This document shows positions 25,995 to 33,257 of a stretch of 55,311 bases of DNA, piece after piece. The position numbers were made by a program, and so were the translations under genes. Within the stretch, counting starts at the first letter, position 1, and each line of letters starts with the position of its first letter. Location: contig NZ_JACJPY010000021.1 in the NCBI RefSeq assembly GCF_014696345.1, forward strand, positions 1 to 55,311, given 5' to 3'. Source of the stretch: Pseudanabaena cinerea FACHB-1277 (GTDB lineage: Bacteria; Cyanobacteriota; Cyanobacteriia; Pseudanabaenales; Pseudanabaenaceae). Below the pieces are notes generated by a model, which worked only from the letters and a program-made list of their open reading frames with translations, did not search any database and had not been told where the DNA came from.

Positions 25995-27071
25995 ATGGCT
26001 GATTTGCCCAATATCCAAACCATACAGGATGTATTAAGACCGATTGTGGATCGCGATCGCCAAAAAAGTATTATTGAAGCGGAAATGGTGCGCGATATTG
26101 CAGTCAAGGCGAATGGGGTAGTTAGTTTTACGCTATTGATGGACAATCCCAATAGCCCCCACCGCGATGCCTTGATTCAAGAATGTAAAACGGCGATCAA
26201 GGCGATCGCCAATGTCACCGATGCTTGGGTGAAAGTAATCGCCAATAGCCCTGTGGTCAATAATCCTGAATCACCTACAAGCCCACTCAAGGGCATCGCT
26301 GGCGTTAAGTATGTACTGGCGGTGTCCAGTGGCAAAGGTGGCGTGGGCAAAACCTCGGTGGCGGTCAATGTGGCGGTTGCCCTTGCTGACATGGGCGCAA
26401 AGGTCGGGATTCTTGATGCGGATATTTATGGGCCTAATGTCCCCGTAATGTTGGGCATGGAGGCGGCGCAGATAAAAGTGGTCAAGGCGGAAAATGGCGC
26501 GGATGTGGTGGAGCCAGCCTTTAACTATGGGGTCAAGATGATCTCTATGGCATTTTTAATCGCGAAGGATCAGCCCGTGGTGTGGCGGGGACCAATGCTT
26601 AATGGCGTAATTCGTCAGTTTTTATACCAAGCCAATTGGGGCGAACTGGATTATTTAATTGTCGATATGCCCCCTGGTACTGGTGATGCTCAATTAACCC
26701 TCACTCAATCTGTGCCATTGGCAGGAGCCGTGATCGTGACCACACCGCAAACAGTCTCACTTTTAGACTCGCTTAAGGGCTTGAAGATGTTTCAAAATAT
26801 GGGCATCCCTGTTTTGGGCATTGTCGAGAACATGAGCTATTTTATTCCTCCCGATCTGCCTGAAAAGCAGTACGACATTTTTGGGTCGGGGGGCGGCAAA
26901 AAGGCGGCGGCAGAGCTTGGCGTGGATTTGCTTGGTTGTGTGCCTCTGGAAATTAGTCTGCGTGAAGGGGGCGATCGCGGTGTGCCGATTGTTTTAGGTC
27001 ATCCTGATTCAGCATCAGCAAAGGCGCTCAGGGAAATTGCAAAGGCGATCGCGGTGAAGGTGGCGGTATAG
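25995..27071 (+). CDS. mrp: Mrp/ApbC-type P-loop iron-sulfur carrier
   Basis: 358 aa from ATG 25995. The N-terminal MIP18/DUF59-like domain (about residues 1-85) is followed by a Mrp ATPase with the deviant Walker A SSGKGGVGKTSVAVNVA, the switch DADIYGPNVP, WRGPMLNGVIRQFL and DYLIVDMPPGTGDAQLTL. It likely binds and transfers [4Fe-4S] clusters. The CxxC that carries the cluster in E. coli-type Mrp is replaced by ENMSYFIPPDLPEKQYDIFG, with no cysteine. I recall this from other cyanobacterial members too, but could not check. Confidence 0.9.
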   Translation: MADLPNIQTIQDVLRPIVDRDRQKSIIEAEMVRDIAVKANGVVSFTLLMDNPNSPHRDALIQECKTAIKAIANVTDAWVKVIANSPVVNNPESPTSPLKGIAGVKYVLAVSSGKGGVGKTSVAVNVAVALADMGAKVGILDADIYGPNVPVMLGMEAAQIKVVKAENGADVVEPAFNYGVKMISMAFLIAKDQPVVWRGPMLNGVIRQFLYQANWGELDYLIVDMPPGTGDAQLTLTQSVPLAGAVIVTTPQTVSLLDSLKGLKMFQNMGIPVLGIVENMSYFIPPDLPEKQYDIFGSGGGKKAAAELGVDLLGCVPLEISLREGGDRGVPIVLGHPDSASAKALREIAKAIAVKVAV

Positions 27072-27185
27072 GTAAGGTGATTGGTGATTGGTGATTGGTA
27101 AATATTATTTGTTATCTTGACTTTTATTGTGATAAACTCGTAAAGGTCAAAAAATCAGATTATAAAAAGTCGCCTGTAAAAAGAA

Positions 27186-27383
27186 GTGCCTAAACTAAAA
27201 ACTCGTAAATCTGCTGCAAAGCGGTTCAAGGTGACAGGTAGCGGCAAGTTTGCACGCCGCCATGCTGGTCGCAATCACTTACTAGAACATAAGCCCACTG
27301 CCCGTAAGAGCAGATTGGGTCAGATGGCTATAGTCGATGAGACTGATAATGACAGAGTAAGTGCCATGATGCCTTACGCCTAA
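27186..27383 (+). CDS. rpmI: 50S ribosomal protein L35
   Basis: 65 aa from a GTG start, with [20 protein letters not shown] and [13 protein letters not shown]. It pairs with rplT 72 bp downstream. infC, often first in this operon, is not upstream here; mrp is. Three 7-bp GGTGATT repeats lie just after mrp (27076-27096). Confidence 0.96.
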
Positions 27384-27455
27384 ATCAAGAATTTTTTGGG
27401 GCATTTCGCGCCCTAAAAAAGTTAAGTAAACACATTTCACGATAACCAAAAAGCC

Positions 27456-27809
27456 ATGACGAGAGTAAAACGCGGTAACGTAGCTAGAAAGCGCCGCAAC
27501 AAAGTACTGAAATTAGCCAAGGGCTTTCGCGGATCGCACTCTAAGCTGTTCCGTACTGCAAACCAGCAGGTAATGAAAGCTCTGCGTAATGCCTACCGCG
27601 ATCGCCGCAAGAAAAAGCGCGATTTCCGTAGCCTCTGGATTACCCGCATTAATGCTGCTGCCCGTCAACAGGGTCTAACCTATAGCAAGTTTGCAGGTTT
27701 ACTCAAGAAAGCCAATATCGAAATTAATCGCAAAATGCTTTCTCAGATCGCCATTCTCGATCCCCAAGCTTTTACGGCGATCGTTGAAAAAGCTAAAGCT
27801 ATGATCTGA
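27456..27809 (+). CDS. rplT: 50S ribosomal protein L20
   Basis: 117 aa, normal length, with [25 protein letters not shown] and the conserved [22 protein letters not shown] end. L20 organises 23S rRNA early in 50S assembly and represses this operon in other bacteria; the leader here shows no obvious mimic by eye. A strong terminator follows. Confidence 0.97.
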
Positions 27810-27822
27810 TGAGGCGATGCAC

Positions 27823-27870
27823 AAAAAAGAAAGGGAGGACACACTGAGTGTGTCCTCCCTTTCTTTTTTG
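27823..27870 (+). terminator. Terminator of rpmI-rplT
   Basis: Very long arms (core GGGAGGACACAC-TGA-GTGTGTCCTCCC flanked by A6G and T6) form an uninterrupted stem of over 20 bp ending in a T run. Confidence 0.92.
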
Positions 27871-28113
27871 TGATAAAGATTTACAAAACTTGATGGTTTC
27901 GGTAACAGACTTGTAAGAAAATCGACTATAACTAAGCGTATTAATTTATACGTTTAATGCGTTTAGCTAAGTTGATCCCGATGCTATTAGATAGATTAGC
28001 TTTTGCAAAAGTGTTGATACGTTTTTGTGAATCGTTAATGGCTAGCCTCTGGGTTAATTTGTCATAATTTAAATTTTTTATACCCCCGTTTTTAAATCAG
28101 GAGATAGTCTGTA
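27871..28113 (+). promoter_or_regulatory. cpeC upstream region
   Basis: 243 bp between the rplT terminator and cpeC, so the cpe operon promoter should lie here. There is a CGTAT-TAATTT-ATACG inverted repeat near 27938-27953, followed by related CGTTTAATGCGTTTAG sequence. A clear Shine-Dalgarno AGGAG precedes the cpeC ATG. The TTGCACA direct repeats (L box) known from some chromatic-acclimation promoters were looked for and are not seen. Confidence 0.4.
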
Positions 28114-28974
28114 ATGCCTTTTGGACCAGCTTCACGTTTGGGTGTTAGTCTGTTTGATGAAACCCCACCCCAAGAGAGGGTGCTAGGTCAGTCCCTAGAA
28201 GAGACCGAAACAATCATTCGTGCCGTATATCGCCAAGTCTTAGGCAATGCCTATGTCATGGAAAGTGAAAGACTCACTGTTGCTGAGTCTCAGTTTAAGA
28301 ATGGTGATTTGAGTGTGCGGGAGTTTGTCCGCGCTGTGGCTAAGTCTGAGCTATATCGTTCGCGGTTTGTTAACAATGCTGCGCCTTACCGCACTACAGA
28401 GTTGAACTTTCGCCACCTGCTTGGTCGCCCTCCCATTGATTATGCAGAGGTGCGTCAACATAGCGACATTCTCAATGCTCAAGGCTTTGAAGCTGACATT
28501 GACTCCTATATTGACAGTGATGAGTACCAAAATACTTTTGGGGAAAACTTTGTTCCTTATATCCGAGGCTATAAGACTGAAGCGATCACTAATTTGGTGC
28601 AGTTTACCCATACCTTTGAACTAGTGCGTGGTGCTGCTAGCAGTAGCCTTAAGGGTGATTTGGCAGGTAATAGCCCTAAGCTCAACAGTCTAATGATCAA
28701 ATCTATCCCTACCGCCGTAATTCCATCCACTGGCGATGGTGCTTCATTCCGTACTCCTGCGGATGCGCCTTTGACCCGCCGTGGTTCTTTTGGGACAGCC
28801 ACAAGCAAGGTATACCGCGTCGAAGTTACGGGCTATCGCGCCAAAACCGTCAATAGCATTTCCAAGTTCCGCCGTAGCAACAAGGTTTACCTCGTTCCCC
28901 TCGATCAGCTTTCTCAAGAATACCAACGTATTCACCAACAAGGCGGTGTAATCGCTAGCATTACGCCTGTTTAG
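28114..28974 (+). CDS. cpeC: Phycoerythrin-associated rod linker CpeC
   Basis: 286 aa. PBS-linker domain at about 20-175 (ETETIIRAVYRQVLGNAYVMESERL, VREFVRAVAKSELYRSRF, ELNFRHLLGRPP, DIDSYIDSDEYQNTFGENFVPYIRGY), then a flexible spacer and a C-terminal CpcD domain (VYRVEVTGYRAKTVN...VYLVPLDQLSQEYQRIHQQGGVIASITPV). The start PFGPASRLGVSLFDE is typical of phycoerythrin linkers. It joins phycoerythrin hexamers in the phycobilisome rod. First gene of the cpe linker/lyase operon. Confidence 0.9.
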   Translation: MPFGPASRLGVSLFDETPPQERVLGQSLEETETIIRAVYRQVLGNAYVMESERLTVAESQFKNGDLSVREFVRAVAKSELYRSRFVNNAAPYRTTELNFRHLLGRPPIDYAEVRQHSDILNAQGFEADIDSYIDSDEYQNTFGENFVPYIRGYKTEAITNLVQFTHTFELVRGAASSSLKGDLAGNSPKLNSLMIKSIPTAVIPSTGDGASFRTPADAPLTRRGSFGTATSKVYRVEVTGYRAKTVNSISKFRRSNKVYLVPLDQLSQEYQRIHQQGGVIASITPV

Positions 28975-28979
28975 TCTTG

Positions 28980-29006
28980 GCTAGTTGGTGCTTTGCGCCA
29001 ACTAGC
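28980..29006 (+). terminator. Hairpin between cpeC and cpeD
   Basis: GCTAGTTGGTGC-TTT-GCGCCAACTAGC forms a 12-bp stem with one G-U pair, 6 bp after the cpeC stop. No T run follows, so it is more likely to stabilise the 3' end of cpeC mRNA or attenuate than to terminate fully. Linker operons often show such unequal expression. Confidence 0.5.
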
Positions 29007-29234
29007 TTGGCTGGTTGGTCATAGCTAAATTTGTAAACTAAATGCTGGGTAGCTGTTGCTTCGGCTCTGGCTGTCCAGCAACTCAGGTTTTCAGTTTATT
29101 TATGGCTAATTGTTGAATTGATGGGATCGCCAAAACTGCGATCGCTATACTAATTTTAAAATTTTCATAACAAAAACCATAATAAAACCCCCTGAGATAT
29201 TTCTTAGTATTTCTTGATACCTATTTGTATCATA

Positions 29235-29267
29235 CTTATATCTTGCTTATATCTTACTTATATCTTG
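29235..29267. repeat. 11-bp tandem repeat x3 upstream of cpeD
   Basis: CTTATATCTTR is repeated three times at 29235-29245, 29246-29256 and 29257-29267, just before the cpeD ATG (29283), in the leader region. Confidence 0.75.
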
Positions 29268-29282
29268 CTTTTACAACAACCT

Positions 29283-30032
29283 ATGGCAACTTTACTAGCA
29301 CCAGTCAAACTCTATGCCAATAGCAGTTCTGAAGATTTACAGACTGTGATTCGCTCTGTATACAAGCAGTTGGGAAATCCCCATGTAATGGACAGTGAGC
29401 GTCTAATTGCTGCCGAGTCTAAACTTGGCGATCGCTCGATCACTGTGCGTGAATTTGTACGGATCGTGGCAAAGTCAGACTTTTATCGCGATCGCTACTT
29501 TTCTGCCTGCGCTCCTTACCGTGCGGTTGAATTAAACTTTCTGCATCTGCTAGGACGCGCTCCTCAAGATCAACGTGAAGTGTCTGAGCATATCGTGCGT
29601 ACTGTCGCTGAAGGCTATGCTGCTGACATCGACTCTTACATCGATAGCGATGAATATCAAGATGCCTTTGGCGAAGACACTGTTCCCTATAGCCGTGGCA
29701 AAAACAGCGCCAACAATGCCAAGCAAGTCGGTTACAACCGTATGTTTGTGTTAGATCGTGGTGCAGCCCAATCGGATAGCGCCGTGCAGTCCTCACAGTT
29801 GGTTTTTGCTTTGGCAACCAATAGCAGCAATGTTATTAAGCCATCCACATCGAATGTGATTGGTTCTGGTACTGAGAAGCGGTTCAAGATTGTGGTGACG
29901 GGTTCTAAGTTTGATACGCGCCGTCGTGTCAGCCAAACTGAGTACATTGTTTCGCTGAGCAATATGACTGCTCAAATCCAACGGATCAATCGTACTTCTG
30001 GCAAGATCGTCAGCATCACGGCGATCGCCTAG
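29283..30032 (+). CDS. cpeD: Phycoerythrin-associated rod linker CpeD
   Basis: 249 aa from ATG 29283; the frame upstream to 29214 runs through the 11-bp repeats and is discarded. It has a PBS-linker domain (EDLQTVIRSVYKQLGNPHVMDSERL, ITVREFVRIVAKSDFYRDRYF, ELNFLHLLGRAPQDQ, DIDSYIDSDEYQDAFGEDTVPYSRG) and a C-terminal CpcD domain (KRFKIVVTGSKFDTRRRV...VSLSNMTAQIQRINRTSGKIVSIT). The APQDQ(R/A)E segment and position agree with CpeD. Linkers of this type attach successive phycoerythrin discs. Confidence 0.85.
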   Translation: MATLLAPVKLYANSSSEDLQTVIRSVYKQLGNPHVMDSERLIAAESKLGDRSITVREFVRIVAKSDFYRDRYFSACAPYRAVELNFLHLLGRAPQDQREVSEHIVRTVAEGYAADIDSYIDSDEYQDAFGEDTVPYSRGKNSANNAKQVGYNRMFVLDRGAAQSDSAVQSSQLVFALATNSSNVIKPSTSNVIGSGTEKRFKIVVTGSKFDTRRRVSQTEYIVSLSNMTAQIQRINRTSGKIVSITAIA

Positions 30033-30042
30033 AATCAGCCGA

Positions 30043-30060
30043 TTACAGCGCTTTGCGCTT
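30043..30060. repeat. Dispersed AGCGC-TTT-GCGCT repeat, reference copy
   Basis: ACAGCGCTTTGCGCTTA is the best copy of a family with consensus ACAGCGCTTTGCGCTCAAACCC. Other copies lie near 4910, 14937 (degenerate), 17780 and 18522. More are near 19438 (degenerate), 25935, 40148 and 45588. Most lie within 50 bp after a stop codon. Confidence 0.7.
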
Positions 30061-30170
30061 AATTTAAATCCAGAAATATTTTTGAGAGCCTAGCTTCGTG
30101 CTGCTTTCAGAAATATTTCTGTAATCTTCACAGCCTCATTAGGCTATATACAAACCAAGCAAGGTCTGTT

Positions 30171-30944
30171 GTGTCAACTGTAAGTAATCAAAATATCAAT
30201 AATCCTATTGCCAACCATCCTTACTGTTATAGCGATCGCCAAGGTTGTCGCGTTGTCATTGAGGTCATGGACAATGGTCGTTCGGGCATAGGTCGTGCAG
30301 GTGTCTTGGCGATCGCGGTTCCCTATGATCGTTTCTCCCAGACCTTACGCTCAATTAAACGTTCTGGCAGGAAAATTTGCAATGTTTTTATATCCCAACT
30401 ACAACTGCCCGATCAACAGGCAGATGTAATTGCAGAGACGACTGCCATAACCGTTGAGGCGCTAACTAGTGCCACTAGCTCTGAAGCCTCAGAAGTAGCG
30501 TCTGATGCTGAATCAACCGATATGCAAGCGATGGACTGCGAGGTTGGGGAAATGCAGGTGATTGGAGAATCTCTTGCTGAGGCGGCAGATGTTGATGGGG
30601 TAAAAAATGTTGTTATCGCTCTAGCTGAGCCTATGGCAGCAGATGAAGTTATAGTTAAGGAAGATTCCGCAGATATTCCCATCGTGGCTACCGCTAATGC
30701 CGATTTGCCTCTGAATGGAGAAGTTCTCGCAGAACAACCTGTTGAGCCAGTTATTGAGCCAGTTATTGAGCCAGTTATTGAGCCAACTATTGCGCTTAAG
30801 AGCGAACTTGTGGCGAATGTAGAAATTGCACCAACTGCCAATGCGAAGAAGCCCAAAGCCTCAACTAAAACGGCAGCAAGTGGTTTTAATAAACGCAAAA
30901 ATGCTCAGACCACGACTAAATCACCTCGAAAGCCCAAAAACTAA
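30171..30944 (+). CDS. CpcD-like domain protein with acidic then basic tail, in place of CpeE
   Basis: 257 aa from GTG 30171. Residues ~26-76 look like a CpcD capping domain (GCRVVIEVMDNG...VLAIAVPYDRFSQTLRSIKRSGRKICNVFIS). There is no PBS-linker domain. Residues ~80-215 are very acidic and rich in Ala, Val, Glu, Ser and Thr, with tandem EPVI units encoded by a 12-bp repeat (about 30735-30785). Residues ~216-257 are strongly basic (KKPKASTKTAAS, RKNAQTTTKSPRKPKN). It occupies the position of CpeE between cpeD and cpeS, and its stop overlaps the cpeS start by 1 bp. The function is unknown; a rod-capping or tethering role is an inference. Confidence 0.65.
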   Translation: MSTVSNQNINNPIANHPYCYSDRQGCRVVIEVMDNGRSGIGRAGVLAIAVPYDRFSQTLRSIKRSGRKICNVFISQLQLPDQQADVIAETTAITVEALTSATSSEASEVASDAESTDMQAMDCEVGEMQVIGESLAEAADVDGVKNVVIALAEPMAADEVIVKEDSADIPIVATANADLPLNGEVLAEQPVEPVIEPVIEPVIEPTIALKSELVANVEIAPTANAKKPKASTKTAASGFNKRKNAQTTTKSPRKPKN

Positions 30945-31480
30945 TGGATATTCGTGAGTTTGTTGCTGGTTCTATCGGACATTGGCGATCGCAGCGTAGC
31001 GCTCACCATTTGGCATTTGGTCACTTTGAGGCGGTGCAGTCAGAAATTGACATCACCGACTTAGCTCTGGATGCTCCCGAAGTCGTTGCGCTTTGTCAAG
31101 CTTACAGCATTGACCCCAAGGAGGCGATCGCCCCCTTTCGGATGAGTTGGGTTGGTCAGTCAGATTGGGAAGATAGTGAAGAGATCAAAGGTAATTGCGT
31201 ATTGGTTCCGATCCCCGATCCTGAACGGCCTAATTGTGGCAAGCTCCTGCGAGAACGCGGCTATGCCGAAGAGGTGGCAGCGATCGGTGAATATCACATT
31301 ACCGAAGATAATACCTTTGTTTTAGTGACTAACTATGATCGCGCCTCGGCTGAAGAAAAAATTTGGTTTGTTAACCCCAATGTCCGATGTCGGGTATCGC
31401 TGATTAAAACCAGTGCTGGTACTGGGGTGATTACTGCCTCTTTCTCTTCCGAAATTCGCCAAAGTTCGCAAAGTGCGTGA
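30944..31480 (+). CDS. cpeS: Phycoerythrobilin lyase CpeS (CpcS/CpeS family)
   Basis: 178 aa. A lipocalin-like chromophore lyase that attaches phycoerythrobilin to phycoerythrin subunits (Cys-80-type sites in characterised CpeS). MDIREFVAGSIGHWRSQRSAHHLAFGHFE, FRMSWVGQSDWE, GKLLRERGYAE and EEKIWFVNPNVRCRVSLIKT are family segments. Its ATG overlaps the stop of the preceding gene (TAATG). Confidence 0.92.
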   Translation: MDIREFVAGSIGHWRSQRSAHHLAFGHFEAVQSEIDITDLALDAPEVVALCQAYSIDPKEAIAPFRMSWVGQSDWEDSEEIKGNCVLVPIPDPERPNCGKLLRERGYAEEVAAIGEYHITEDNTFVLVTNYDRASAEEKIWFVNPNVRCRVSLIKTSAGTGVITASFSSEIRQSSQSA

Positions 31481-31547
31481 CAAAATGCTGGATAGTAGCG
31501 CTGACGCTAATACTAAGCCCTAATATTAATCTTCACTTATTAAATCT

Positions 31548-32153
31548 ATGGATCTATCCCAGTCTAATTGCCATGATTTAATTACCCTTGCCCGTTGGAT
31601 GGCAGGTGATTTCAGTAATTACCAACAAGCCGCCGCTAGTCCTAGAGACTTTGCCCATATTCATGTGTTCTTCCGTCCTCTGCCCTTTGACTTCTTTAAC
31701 GGAATTGGACTCTATTCAGAACAGGTCTATGACTATGACCTCTGGACTCCCTACCGCCAAGGTGTCCATCGTTTAGTGGATCAAGGCGATCGCATCTATA
31801 TAGAGAACTATAGCCTCAAAAATGCAATGTACTTTGCAGGGGCAGGACGCAATCTGGACATTCTCAAAACGATTAGTAAAGAGGCGATCTCAAGGCGCTA
31901 TAACTGCTCAATGGTCTTTCGGCGCGAAGGCGATCGCTATATCGGTGGCGTTGAGGGCAGTAGTTGCTTCATAGAGAAAAATGGCTGTCAAACCTATCTC
32001 GATAGCTATGTCGAGGTGACTGAAACGACATGGCTTAGTCTCGATAAAGGCATGGATATTAACACGCATCAACAAGTTTGGGGTTCAACTACTGGTCCAT
32101 TAAGATTTGAAAAAAAAGAGAGCTTTGCCAATGAAGTCCCCAATATCCTGTAA
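31548..32153 (+). CDS. cpeT: Phycobilin lyase CpeT (CpcT/CpeT family)
   Basis: 201 aa. A chromophore lyase of the CpcT/CpeT type, which acts on the Cys-165-type site of beta subunits. Landmarks are LARWMAGDFSN, HVFFRPLPFDFFNGIGLYSEQVYDYDLWTPYRQGVHRL and NCSMVFRREGDRYIGGVEGSSCFI. It lies between cpeS and cpeR; the cpeR start is inside its last 23 bp. Confidence 0.93.
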   Translation: MDLSQSNCHDLITLARWMAGDFSNYQQAAASPRDFAHIHVFFRPLPFDFFNGIGLYSEQVYDYDLWTPYRQGVHRLVDQGDRIYIENYSLKNAMYFAGAGRNLDILKTISKEAISRRYNCSMVFRREGDRYIGGVEGSSCFIEKNGCQTYLDSYVEVTETTWLSLDKGMDINTHQQVWGSTTGPLRFEKKESFANEVPNIL

Positions 32154-32490
32154 ACCGATAGAAATACCAGTCAATCTGGCAAGAATATTGCCGCCCGAAG
32201 CTCAGAAAAAAATGCAGAGTTGGATTCGCAGTCGCCATCTAATTTGTTCGGGAAATTTTTTTGTCTTTGAAAGTGTTGATTATAGTGCGGTGGAACGCTT
32301 TGGCGAATGTGTGGCAGCTTTGGGCGGTACGGTCATTACTGTTGAACCCGTTGACAAAATTTGGATGGGCGATCATCGCCAAGTGATTCTCTACCGTTCT
32401 AAAGCAAGTCTGCATACTCCTCACCATCAACTGCGTCAATATTGGATTAAGTATGGCAATTTTCGCACTAGGTTTGATGAACAAGCTTAG
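32131..32490 (+). CDS. cpeR: Phycoerythrin operon activator CpeR
   Basis: 119 aa from ATG 32131; a TTG at 32107 would add 8 residues. It has LPPEAQKKMQSWIRSRHLICSGNFFVFES, ERFGECVAALGGTVI, IWMGDHRQVILYRSKASLHTPHH and LRQYWIKYGNFRTRFDE, the conserved body of CpeR. CpeR is required for cpeBA transcription in chromatically acclimating cyanobacteria. Its presence as last gene of the operon suggests the structural genes cpeBA lie elsewhere under its control. Confidence 0.9.
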   Translation: MKSPISCKPIEIPVNLARILPPEAQKKMQSWIRSRHLICSGNFFVFESVDYSAVERFGECVAALGGTVITVEPVDKIWMGDHRQVILYRSKASLHTPHHQLRQYWIKYGNFRTRFDEQA

Positions 32491-32537
32491 TAGTTTTGCG
32501 GTATGAGATATTTGCAAAGTTTTATGCCACAAATGCC

Positions 32538-33257
32538 TCATTGGGGATTAGTCTGACTGGGAATCATCACGATCGCCCAATAGGTGACGTTATCAGGATC
32601 GACTTCAGAAATAGGCTTGATCACCTGATTGGGCAGAGTGGCGCGTTCGATATAGAGGGCGCGTTCCCAGAGATTGAGATCCTGCAAAATCGATTTTATT
32701 TTGGCAAAGTGGCGACCAAGTTTGATGATAATCGCGGCATCTGCCACCGCTAGGCGATCGTGCAGGGTGTCCGCATCCAAAGTTGCGGGCATAATGCTTA
32801 ATACATCATTACGGAAGGTGAGGGGTGCGCCGAGCATAGCGGCACTGGCAAGGGTGGAAGAAATCCCTGGGATAACTTCGGTATGGAACCTGTCAGCGAG
32901 TCGCCGAAAAATATACATGAAGGAACCATATAGCATGGGGTCGCCTTCACATAGCACCGCCACATCGCGCCCAACTTGCAAATGTTCGGCGATTTTCGCC
33001 GCAGCAATATCGTAATAGGGTTGGGAAGAACGCTCGACGCTGAAGGGCAGAGGCATCGGCACTTCGATCTGTTCGGGACGGATAAAATCCGCCACGATCG
33101 CCCTTGCTAATACCTTGCCATTTTCCATGGTGGGATAGGCAATCACAGGGACGGTGGTGATAATCCGATGAGCCTTAATGGTCAGCAATTCAGGATCGCC
33201 AGGGCCAATGCCCACGCCGTAGAGACTGCCCTTAGTCATGGTTTGAGATTCGTTCAT
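32538..33257 (-). CDS. cobI: Precorrin-2 C20-methyltransferase CobI
   Basis: 239 aa. It methylates precorrin-2 at C20 in cobalamin synthesis. GSLYGVGIGPGDPELLTIKA, the CEGDPMLYGSFMYI loop and VIPGISSTLASAAMLGAPL are typical of tetrapyrrole methylases of this subgroup. The start ATG overlaps the cobH stop by 4 bp (ATGA), indicating translational coupling. Confidence 0.92.
   Translation of the reverse strand: MNESQTMTKGSLYGVGIGPGDPELLTIKAHRIITTVPVIAYPTMENGKVLARAIVADFIRPEQIEVPMPLPFSVERSSQPYYDIAAAKIAEHLQVGRDVAVLCEGDPMLYGSFMYIFRRLADRFHTEVIPGISSTLASAAMLGAPLTFRNDVLSIMPATLDADTLHDRLAVADAAIIIKLGRHFAKIKSILQDLNLWERALYIERATLPNQVIKPISEVDPDNVTYWAIVMIPSQTNPQ

Follow-up and report, generated by a model that had tools for sequence, protein, structure and literature searches.

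A CpcD-fold protein with an acidic spacer and a constrained basic tip in the cpe operon of Pseudanabaena, a possible tether at the phycobilisome rod end

We describe here a protein, designated x, whose gene stands third in a cpe operon of Pseudanabaena cinerea FACHB-1277 and in which a CpcD-fold domain is followed by an acidic spacer and a strongly basic C-terminal tip. This architecture extends across the genus and is new here. The tip is constrained and the spacer changes fast, thus the two behave as a binding module and its tether would. It is probable that x docks at the end of a phycobilisome rod, and we give roughly even chances to the fuller reading, in which this rod-end protein serves also as a flexible tether. 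On the basis of its CpcD fold and its place in the cpe operon x is likely a phycobilisome component, as had been suggested from the sequence alone, and a new one as far as the literature searched can tell: most subscription papers lay outside that search, and within it neither x nor any CpcD-like gene at the cpeE-cpeS junction was described. The accessible parts of PMC10053587, PMC2246261, PMC11976284 and PMC9205905 likewise hold no description of x or of a CpcD-like gene at this junction.

The operon and the CpcD-fold domain

The window, that is the whole stretch of DNA analysed (55,311 nucleotides), is an entire contig (G000:C94) of a genome of 4.77 Mb (G000). According to the reading frames and the Pfam matches of the neighbours, the gene order at the locus is rpmI-rplT-cpeC-cpeD-x-cpeS-cpeT-cpeR on the forward strand, which bore out the original placement of x as the third gene of cpeC-D-x-S-T-R; the names rpmI, rplT and cpeR are our assumption, guided by position. 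Both rod linker genes, cpeC (28114..28974; PF00427 at 171.5 bits, PF01383 at 78.8 bits) and cpeD (29283..30032, the start being taken as the ATG at 29283; 155.8 and 39.7 bits, respectively), encode a PBS_linker_poly and a CpcD domain. The gap of 138 bases between cpeD and x contains a strong hairpin of 22 pairs (30071..30121, forward strand; RNA fold of 30033-30170, z -6.3), which gave 10 matches in its own genome, the query itself and double-strand matches counted. With six similar places elsewhere, it probably belongs to a dispersed family of palindromic repeats. The gene x (30171..30944, 257 amino acids) starts with GTG and ends with TAA, and its stop shares one base (TAATG) with the start of the bilin lyase gene cpeS (30944..31480; PF09367 at 205.1 bits). 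It is followed by cpeT (31548..32153; PF06206 at 225.8 bits) and by the cpeR-like gene (32137..32490), which had no Pfam or NCBIfam match and is kept at the same place in relatives. The scan for promoters and terminators returned sites no more numerous than in shuffles, and within 27000-33000 there was nothing above the gathering score in Rfam. The same genome has a second linker cluster (L066, G000:C112, 5781-7854), made up of a CpeD-like linker, a second CpeR and a CpcG-like linker; its version in G007 and G018 also encodes a 589-residue protein with two PBS-linker-like halves, which is absent from the G000 cluster.

The CpcD-fold domain of x occupies residues 27-76 (30249..30398). The Pfam CpcD profile, which had been proposed as a check, gave a score that straddled its cut-off of 27 bits: PF01383 reached 25.3 bits (E 1.8e-5) on the protein and 27.2 bits in a six-frame search of the genome, and both matches were partial, covering only profile positions 24-53 of 55. 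A profile built from 16 relatives was more decisive when compared with solved chains, its best match being a 66-residue chain named phycoerythrocyanin-associated rod linker (E 4.6e-9), with weaker matches to T. vulcanus CpcD (7veb, 2.9e-7) and to an FNR (7.7e-6), whereas the window's x protein alone as query reached CpcD only at 0.018. Structure prediction pointed the same way: the AlphaFold2 model of residues 1-85 has the order strand-strand-helix-strand with a mean pLDDT of 64.2 (88 in residues 51-70), and for this model Foldseek placed nothing but phycobilisome linkers and the FNR CpcD domain at ranks 1-41, the latter at rank 3 (8hfq_m), at a best E of only 1.3e-3 with none below 0.001. VIA-align of the domain was not decisive, with Z up to 6.4 against 5.2 for unrelated folds. 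PBS_linker_poly (PF00427), which CpeC and CpeD both carry, is absent from x by Pfam. Taken together, the family profile, the predicted fold with its Foldseek matches and the missing PF00427 upheld the claim that x has a CpcD-like domain and no PBS-linker domain.

The domain allows x to be compared with several known proteins. Like CpcD (PF01383; NF058509), x has a free-standing CpcD-fold domain and is a likely rod cap, but it scores 18 on the NCBIfam model rod_cap_CpcD (cut-off 80), stands on another branch of the tree, carries a tail of about 180 residues and is located here in the cpe operon. In FNR_L (PetH), too, a CpcD-fold domain is followed by a flexible linker with a second function; x, however, is without the FAD/NADP-binding catalytic domain of FNR and ends in a short basic motif, and FNR profiles matched it weakly, with 23.9 bits over the CpcD part (profile positions 33-109 of 411 only). 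With CpeE and the other phycoerythrin rod linkers x has the CpcD-fold domain and the operon in common. It had been proposed that x replaces CpeE, and this could not be maintained, since x has no PBS-linker domain, adjoins a cpeE-like linker in G007 and G013, and occurs in the order cpeC-D-E-x-S-T-R in other cyanobacteria.

The acidic spacer and the basic tip

The description of the tail as acidic and then basic agreed with the residue composition. Residues 77-215 (30399..30815) contain 30 Asp and Glu and 3 Lys and Arg, and residues 216-257 (30816..30941), which form the tip with its GFNK motif, contain 1 and 11 of them, respectively; the pI of the tip is 11.4. In the model of the full-length protein (mean pLDDT 54.3) only the CpcD-fold domain is confident, and residues 91-189 lie almost wholly below 50, a value which a shallow alignment produces likewise. 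The EPVI repeats of the spacer, which had been noted at first, are encoded by a perfect 12-bp tandem repeat of 3.7 copies (30742..30785; Tandem Repeats Finder). Being perfect at the DNA level, the repeat looks like the result of recent slippage, and EPVI was rejected as a functional motif on this ground; what the family conserves is the basic tip.

The motif GF[NS]K was found in the basic C-terminal tip of all 22 genus members. In most of them the motif recurs internally one to three times, in some cases in degenerate form; no clear internal copy was seen in the window's x or in those of G010, G024 and G017. Among the 20 members with an unbroken tail, the net charge of the spacer (here what remains of the protein without its first 80 and last 40 residues) is -8 to -68 and that of the last 40 residues is +5 to +12. 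The stricter pattern GxGF[NS]KP, which misses several x copies including the window's, had 21 matches in 17 of 26 genomes against 6 for its backward control. Sixteen lie inside x, and the other five (G007, G009, G016, G018, G019) are in open frames of 22-45 codons and were taken as chance, so the presence of the tip in another protein was discarded. With a 34-residue tip query x was the sole match in the window's genome (E 0.019).

Synonymous and non-synonymous changes were counted in eight pairs of relatives, separately for the domain (residues 1-78), the spacer and the last 42 residues. The dN/dS values were 0.21-0.44 for the domain (7 computable pairs), 0.20-0.33 for the tip (6 computable pairs) and 0.47-0.81 for the spacer in seven pairs, the eighth giving 1.23 on 15 changes. 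When six of the eight pairs were pooled (G018-G016 and G018-G009 excluded; G019-G009 kept, with 3 non-synonymous and 0 synonymous changes in its tip), the non-synonymous to synonymous differences, which are raw and not normalised by sites, were 47/41 in the tip, 60/53 in the domain and 439/193 in the spacer. By Fisher's test on these differences both the tip (P 0.003) and the domain (P 0.001) differ from the spacer, and tip and domain do not differ from each other (P 1.0). Thus the tip is under constraint equal to that of the folded domain.

Occurrence of x and its relatives

The gene x is present in 22 of the 26 genus genomes: 20 with an unbroken tail (the start in G008 being uncertain), G002, and G012, in which a masked stretch interrupts a gene readable on both sides. 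Alignment A1 is without G012 for this masked stretch and without G002, which was found later, and A3 is without L110 and L111. The profile search did not find x in G005, G006, G014 and G015, where the assemblies of G005 and G015 are 82% and 76% complete. The lengths in the genus range from 193 to about 538 residues. In six genomes, the window's and five more, x lies inside the cpe operon between the last cpe linker and cpeS, following cpeD in the window, G022, G018 and G016 and a cpeE-like linker in G013 and G007; the x stop and the cpeS start overlap by one base in five of these six, and in G022 they are 11 bases apart. In G010 x follows a cpeC-like linker beside rplT, and in the other genus genomes the sequence read around it, which in some cases stops with the contig, showed no adjoining cpe genes.

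An intact cpeR was found in 12 of the 26 genomes, and a thirteenth (G009) has only a fragment; x accompanies cpeR in 11 of the 12 and is also present in 11 of the 14 without it. Half of the x-bearing genomes (11 of 22) are thus without an intact cpeR, which means that x is not bound to phycoerythrin, and a role in phycoerythrin rods only was rejected. A cpeC-like linker is kept beside rplT without cpeR in G010 (L058, 3181-4930), which has x, and in G006 (L218, 4463-5326), which does not; a CpcD gene was found in neither genome. In G009 the cpeR fragment adjoins a shortened multi-linker gene (L219, 3787-4996), and this looks like a decaying phycoerythrin cluster.

A single sequence as query matched no more than 7 of 58 genomes, and a profile had to be used instead. 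Run across the class, the profile matched 324 of 388 genomes at E <=0.001, a figure that is no count of x, since the weaker matches are mostly linker-, CpcD- or FNR-sized frames. Short CpcD-like proteins of other lineages ranked alongside those of the genus, the matches with a name include Tolypothrix brevis and Nostoc sp. CMAA1605, and most of the best outside matches sit between the last cpe linker and cpeS. A small CpcD-like gene was present at 21 of 52 linker-cpeS junctions outside the genus and there was none at the other 31, which is not a class rate, as lower-scoring cpeR loci as well as Tolypothrix and Nostoc, taken from another collection, stand outside the count. The junctions come from two sources. 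By cpeR, found in 98 of 388 genomes, 53 stretches were fetched; 14 had no linker-cpeS junction and the G185 locus appeared twice, leaving 8 junctions with the gene and 30 without, a ratio of 8/38 that is too low by itself because genomes already fetched for an x match had been set aside beforehand. By their x match 16 class genomes were fetched: in 2 the junction was missing, and of the remaining 14 it held the gene in 13 and was without it in G262.

These junction genes, found in Nostocales and others, share with x the place in the operon and the branch in the tree, but their tails are absent or differently ended. About six of those in other genera are tail-less, and relatives with no or nearly no tail measure 69-95 amino acids overall. 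The others end in FxxGDYTFIDEW-like (Tolypothrix, Nostoc, G135), LPxLVRxLLxKL-like (G306, G206, G055) or other basic sequences (G259, G213, G380). Amphipathic ends as a trait of other lineages were a weak candidate and were set aside, with 4 of 9 beating their shuffles at P 0.05. In G165 two different x-like genes stand in tandem from cpeE to cpeS (L147, 5318-6228), one with a basic end and the other with a LPKLIRSFLKKL-like end.

The tree was calculated from 62 CpcD domains over 72 columns only, with G002, G008 and G012 left out. It joins x and the small CpcD-like junction genes (support 94/88), and x with Tolypothrix, Nostoc, G135, G165, G032 and G216 at 100/99, and it separates them from CpcD with FNR (99/92) and from the linker domains (95/68); the 19 genus rows as one clade get only 28/0. 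The domain of the window's x is divergent, with an end branch of 1.49 and identities of no more than 35% over the columns used.

Possible function at the rod end

It is known that the outer rod end carries CpcD or FNR, and the anchoring of phycobilisomes is held to go through the core or CpcL. In the mechanism that we propose, the CpcD-fold domain would cap the rod, as its fold, the operon and the docking precedent suggest, and residues 77-215 would project from the rod end as a disordered acidic spacer, a shape consistent with the composition, the low pLDDT and the fast change. The basic GF[NS]K tip, whose constraint is observed, may be a short module gripping a partner outside the rod. Since the tip is strongly basic, a negatively charged partner is favoured, the thylakoid membrane or a neighbouring phycobilisome being the likeliest candidates (among the phycobilisome subunits the pI is 5.1 for CpcB and 7.7 for CpcA). 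The invariant aromatic residue of the motif points to some specificity of this putative binding, and members with extra internal copies of the tip would bind multivalently. The constrained tip and the faster spacer thus make the tethering envisaged by the sequence-only reading plausible, with a putative partner among membrane, neighbouring phycobilisome and enzyme.

The alternative that comes nearest is that x is a plain rod cap with an entropic tail, in which the acidic part only spaces or solubilises the rods and the basic end folds back on the rod surface; we regard this as possible, though clearly less probable than the tether. It would account for the CpcD fold and for a spacer that changes fast yet stays net acidic in the members measured, and the relatives of 69-95 amino acids with little or no tail suggest that the tail is inessential to the basic role. 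What it does not explain is a tip as constrained as the folded domain, nor a tip motif whose aromatic residue and internal copies exceed what charge alone requires. The distribution of CpcD itself can be read on both sides. By PF01383 a CpcD-sized gene stands beside the ApcC type (75 amino acids) in 23 of the 26 genomes, the two being sorted by length and place on our own judgement, and the search gave none for G000, G006 and G010, of which G000 and G010 carry x. In G000 x may thus be the main rod cap, which suits a plain cap; but 20 of the 22 x genomes have CpcD as well, so x is not a required cap in those, and G006, where neither x nor CpcD was found, indicates that a cap is dispensable. According to the accessible part of PMC2246261 there is a precedent for phycoerythrin strains missing CpcD in marine Synechococcus.

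A non-structural role, with x as an assembly or maturation factor acting together with the CpeS/CpeT lyases and, for example, holding unassembled subunits, seems unlikely. That x and cpeS share one base in five of the six in-operon genus copies would fit such a coupling, and so would the cpeS match in G165, G032, G040 and G055, which starts with the final base of the x-like gene. Against this, x persists in 11 genomes without an intact cpeR, where, with the exception of G010, it had no adjoining cpe genes in the stretches read, and elsewhere the CpcD fold is known from components of rods or cores, as in the Foldseek matches.

The relation to FNR deserves attention, since the CpcD domain of FNR attaches to rod ends (PMC9319322, PMC10322944, PMC10696076, in their accessible parts). 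The accessible parts of PMC10322944 and PMC9319322 place it at the distal end of the rod, where it sits on the CpcC2 Pfam00427 domain, with the remaining FNR not resolved owing to its long flexible linker. FNR was found in 25 of the 26 genus genomes and always in the short form (from profile position 105-112 to 411). In 57 other genomes it was matched in 52 and above the cut-off in 40, and all of these 40 matches start at profile position 1-22 and so include the CpcD part; nine other members of the window's family have a near-complete catalytic match below the long-form cut-off, in frames of 303-340 residues, and in G079 and G088, outside this family, FNR is short too. Judged from these sequences, the Pseudanabaena rod ends would be left FNR-free. 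Replacement of FNR_L by x was weakened as a candidate by the distributions, because both mismatched combinations occur, a short FNR with no x-like gene at the cpe junction (G026, G028, G029, G033, G298) and a long FNR kept alongside tailed x relatives (G165, G135, G259, G306, G040), thus x is not a simple FNR substitute. That x is an adaptor, whose tip motifs bring an enzyme or regulator such as FNR to the rod ends, is the least likely of the alternatives: the short FNR of all 25 genus genomes, set against matches from position 1-22 in 40 of 57 others, and a short motif repeated at intervals along a disordered tail would suit recruitment, but loss and gain are mismatched in the ten genomes just named and the slightly basic FNR of G000 (pI 8.3) is a poor match for a basic tip. 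The absence of the CpcD domain from the genus FNR is compatible with the enzyme-adaptor reading and gives it no support.

Returning to the tether, a wider generalisation can be offered as a speculation that we hold to be rather improbable, somewhat more so than the plain cap. The x-like proteins would be modular rod-end tethers, in which the CpcD-fold dock is kept and the lineages swap the tip on a disordered acidic arm (GF[NS]K in 1-4 copies in Pseudanabaena, LPxLVRxLLxKL-like or FxxGDYTFIDEW-like), so that phycobilisomes would be cross-linked into arrays, or fastened to membranes or enzymes, by way of their rods in addition to the core. The multi-copy tails of Pseudanabaena could then be a multivalent glue, or a stand-in for the missing docking domain of FNR.

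If it is true that a widespread rod-end protein carries a constrained tip on a long tether, this would be a second way to place phycobilisomes with respect to one another, to membranes or to enzymes. It would also give a role to the recurrent gene between cpeE and cpeS, which is nameless in the literature searched.
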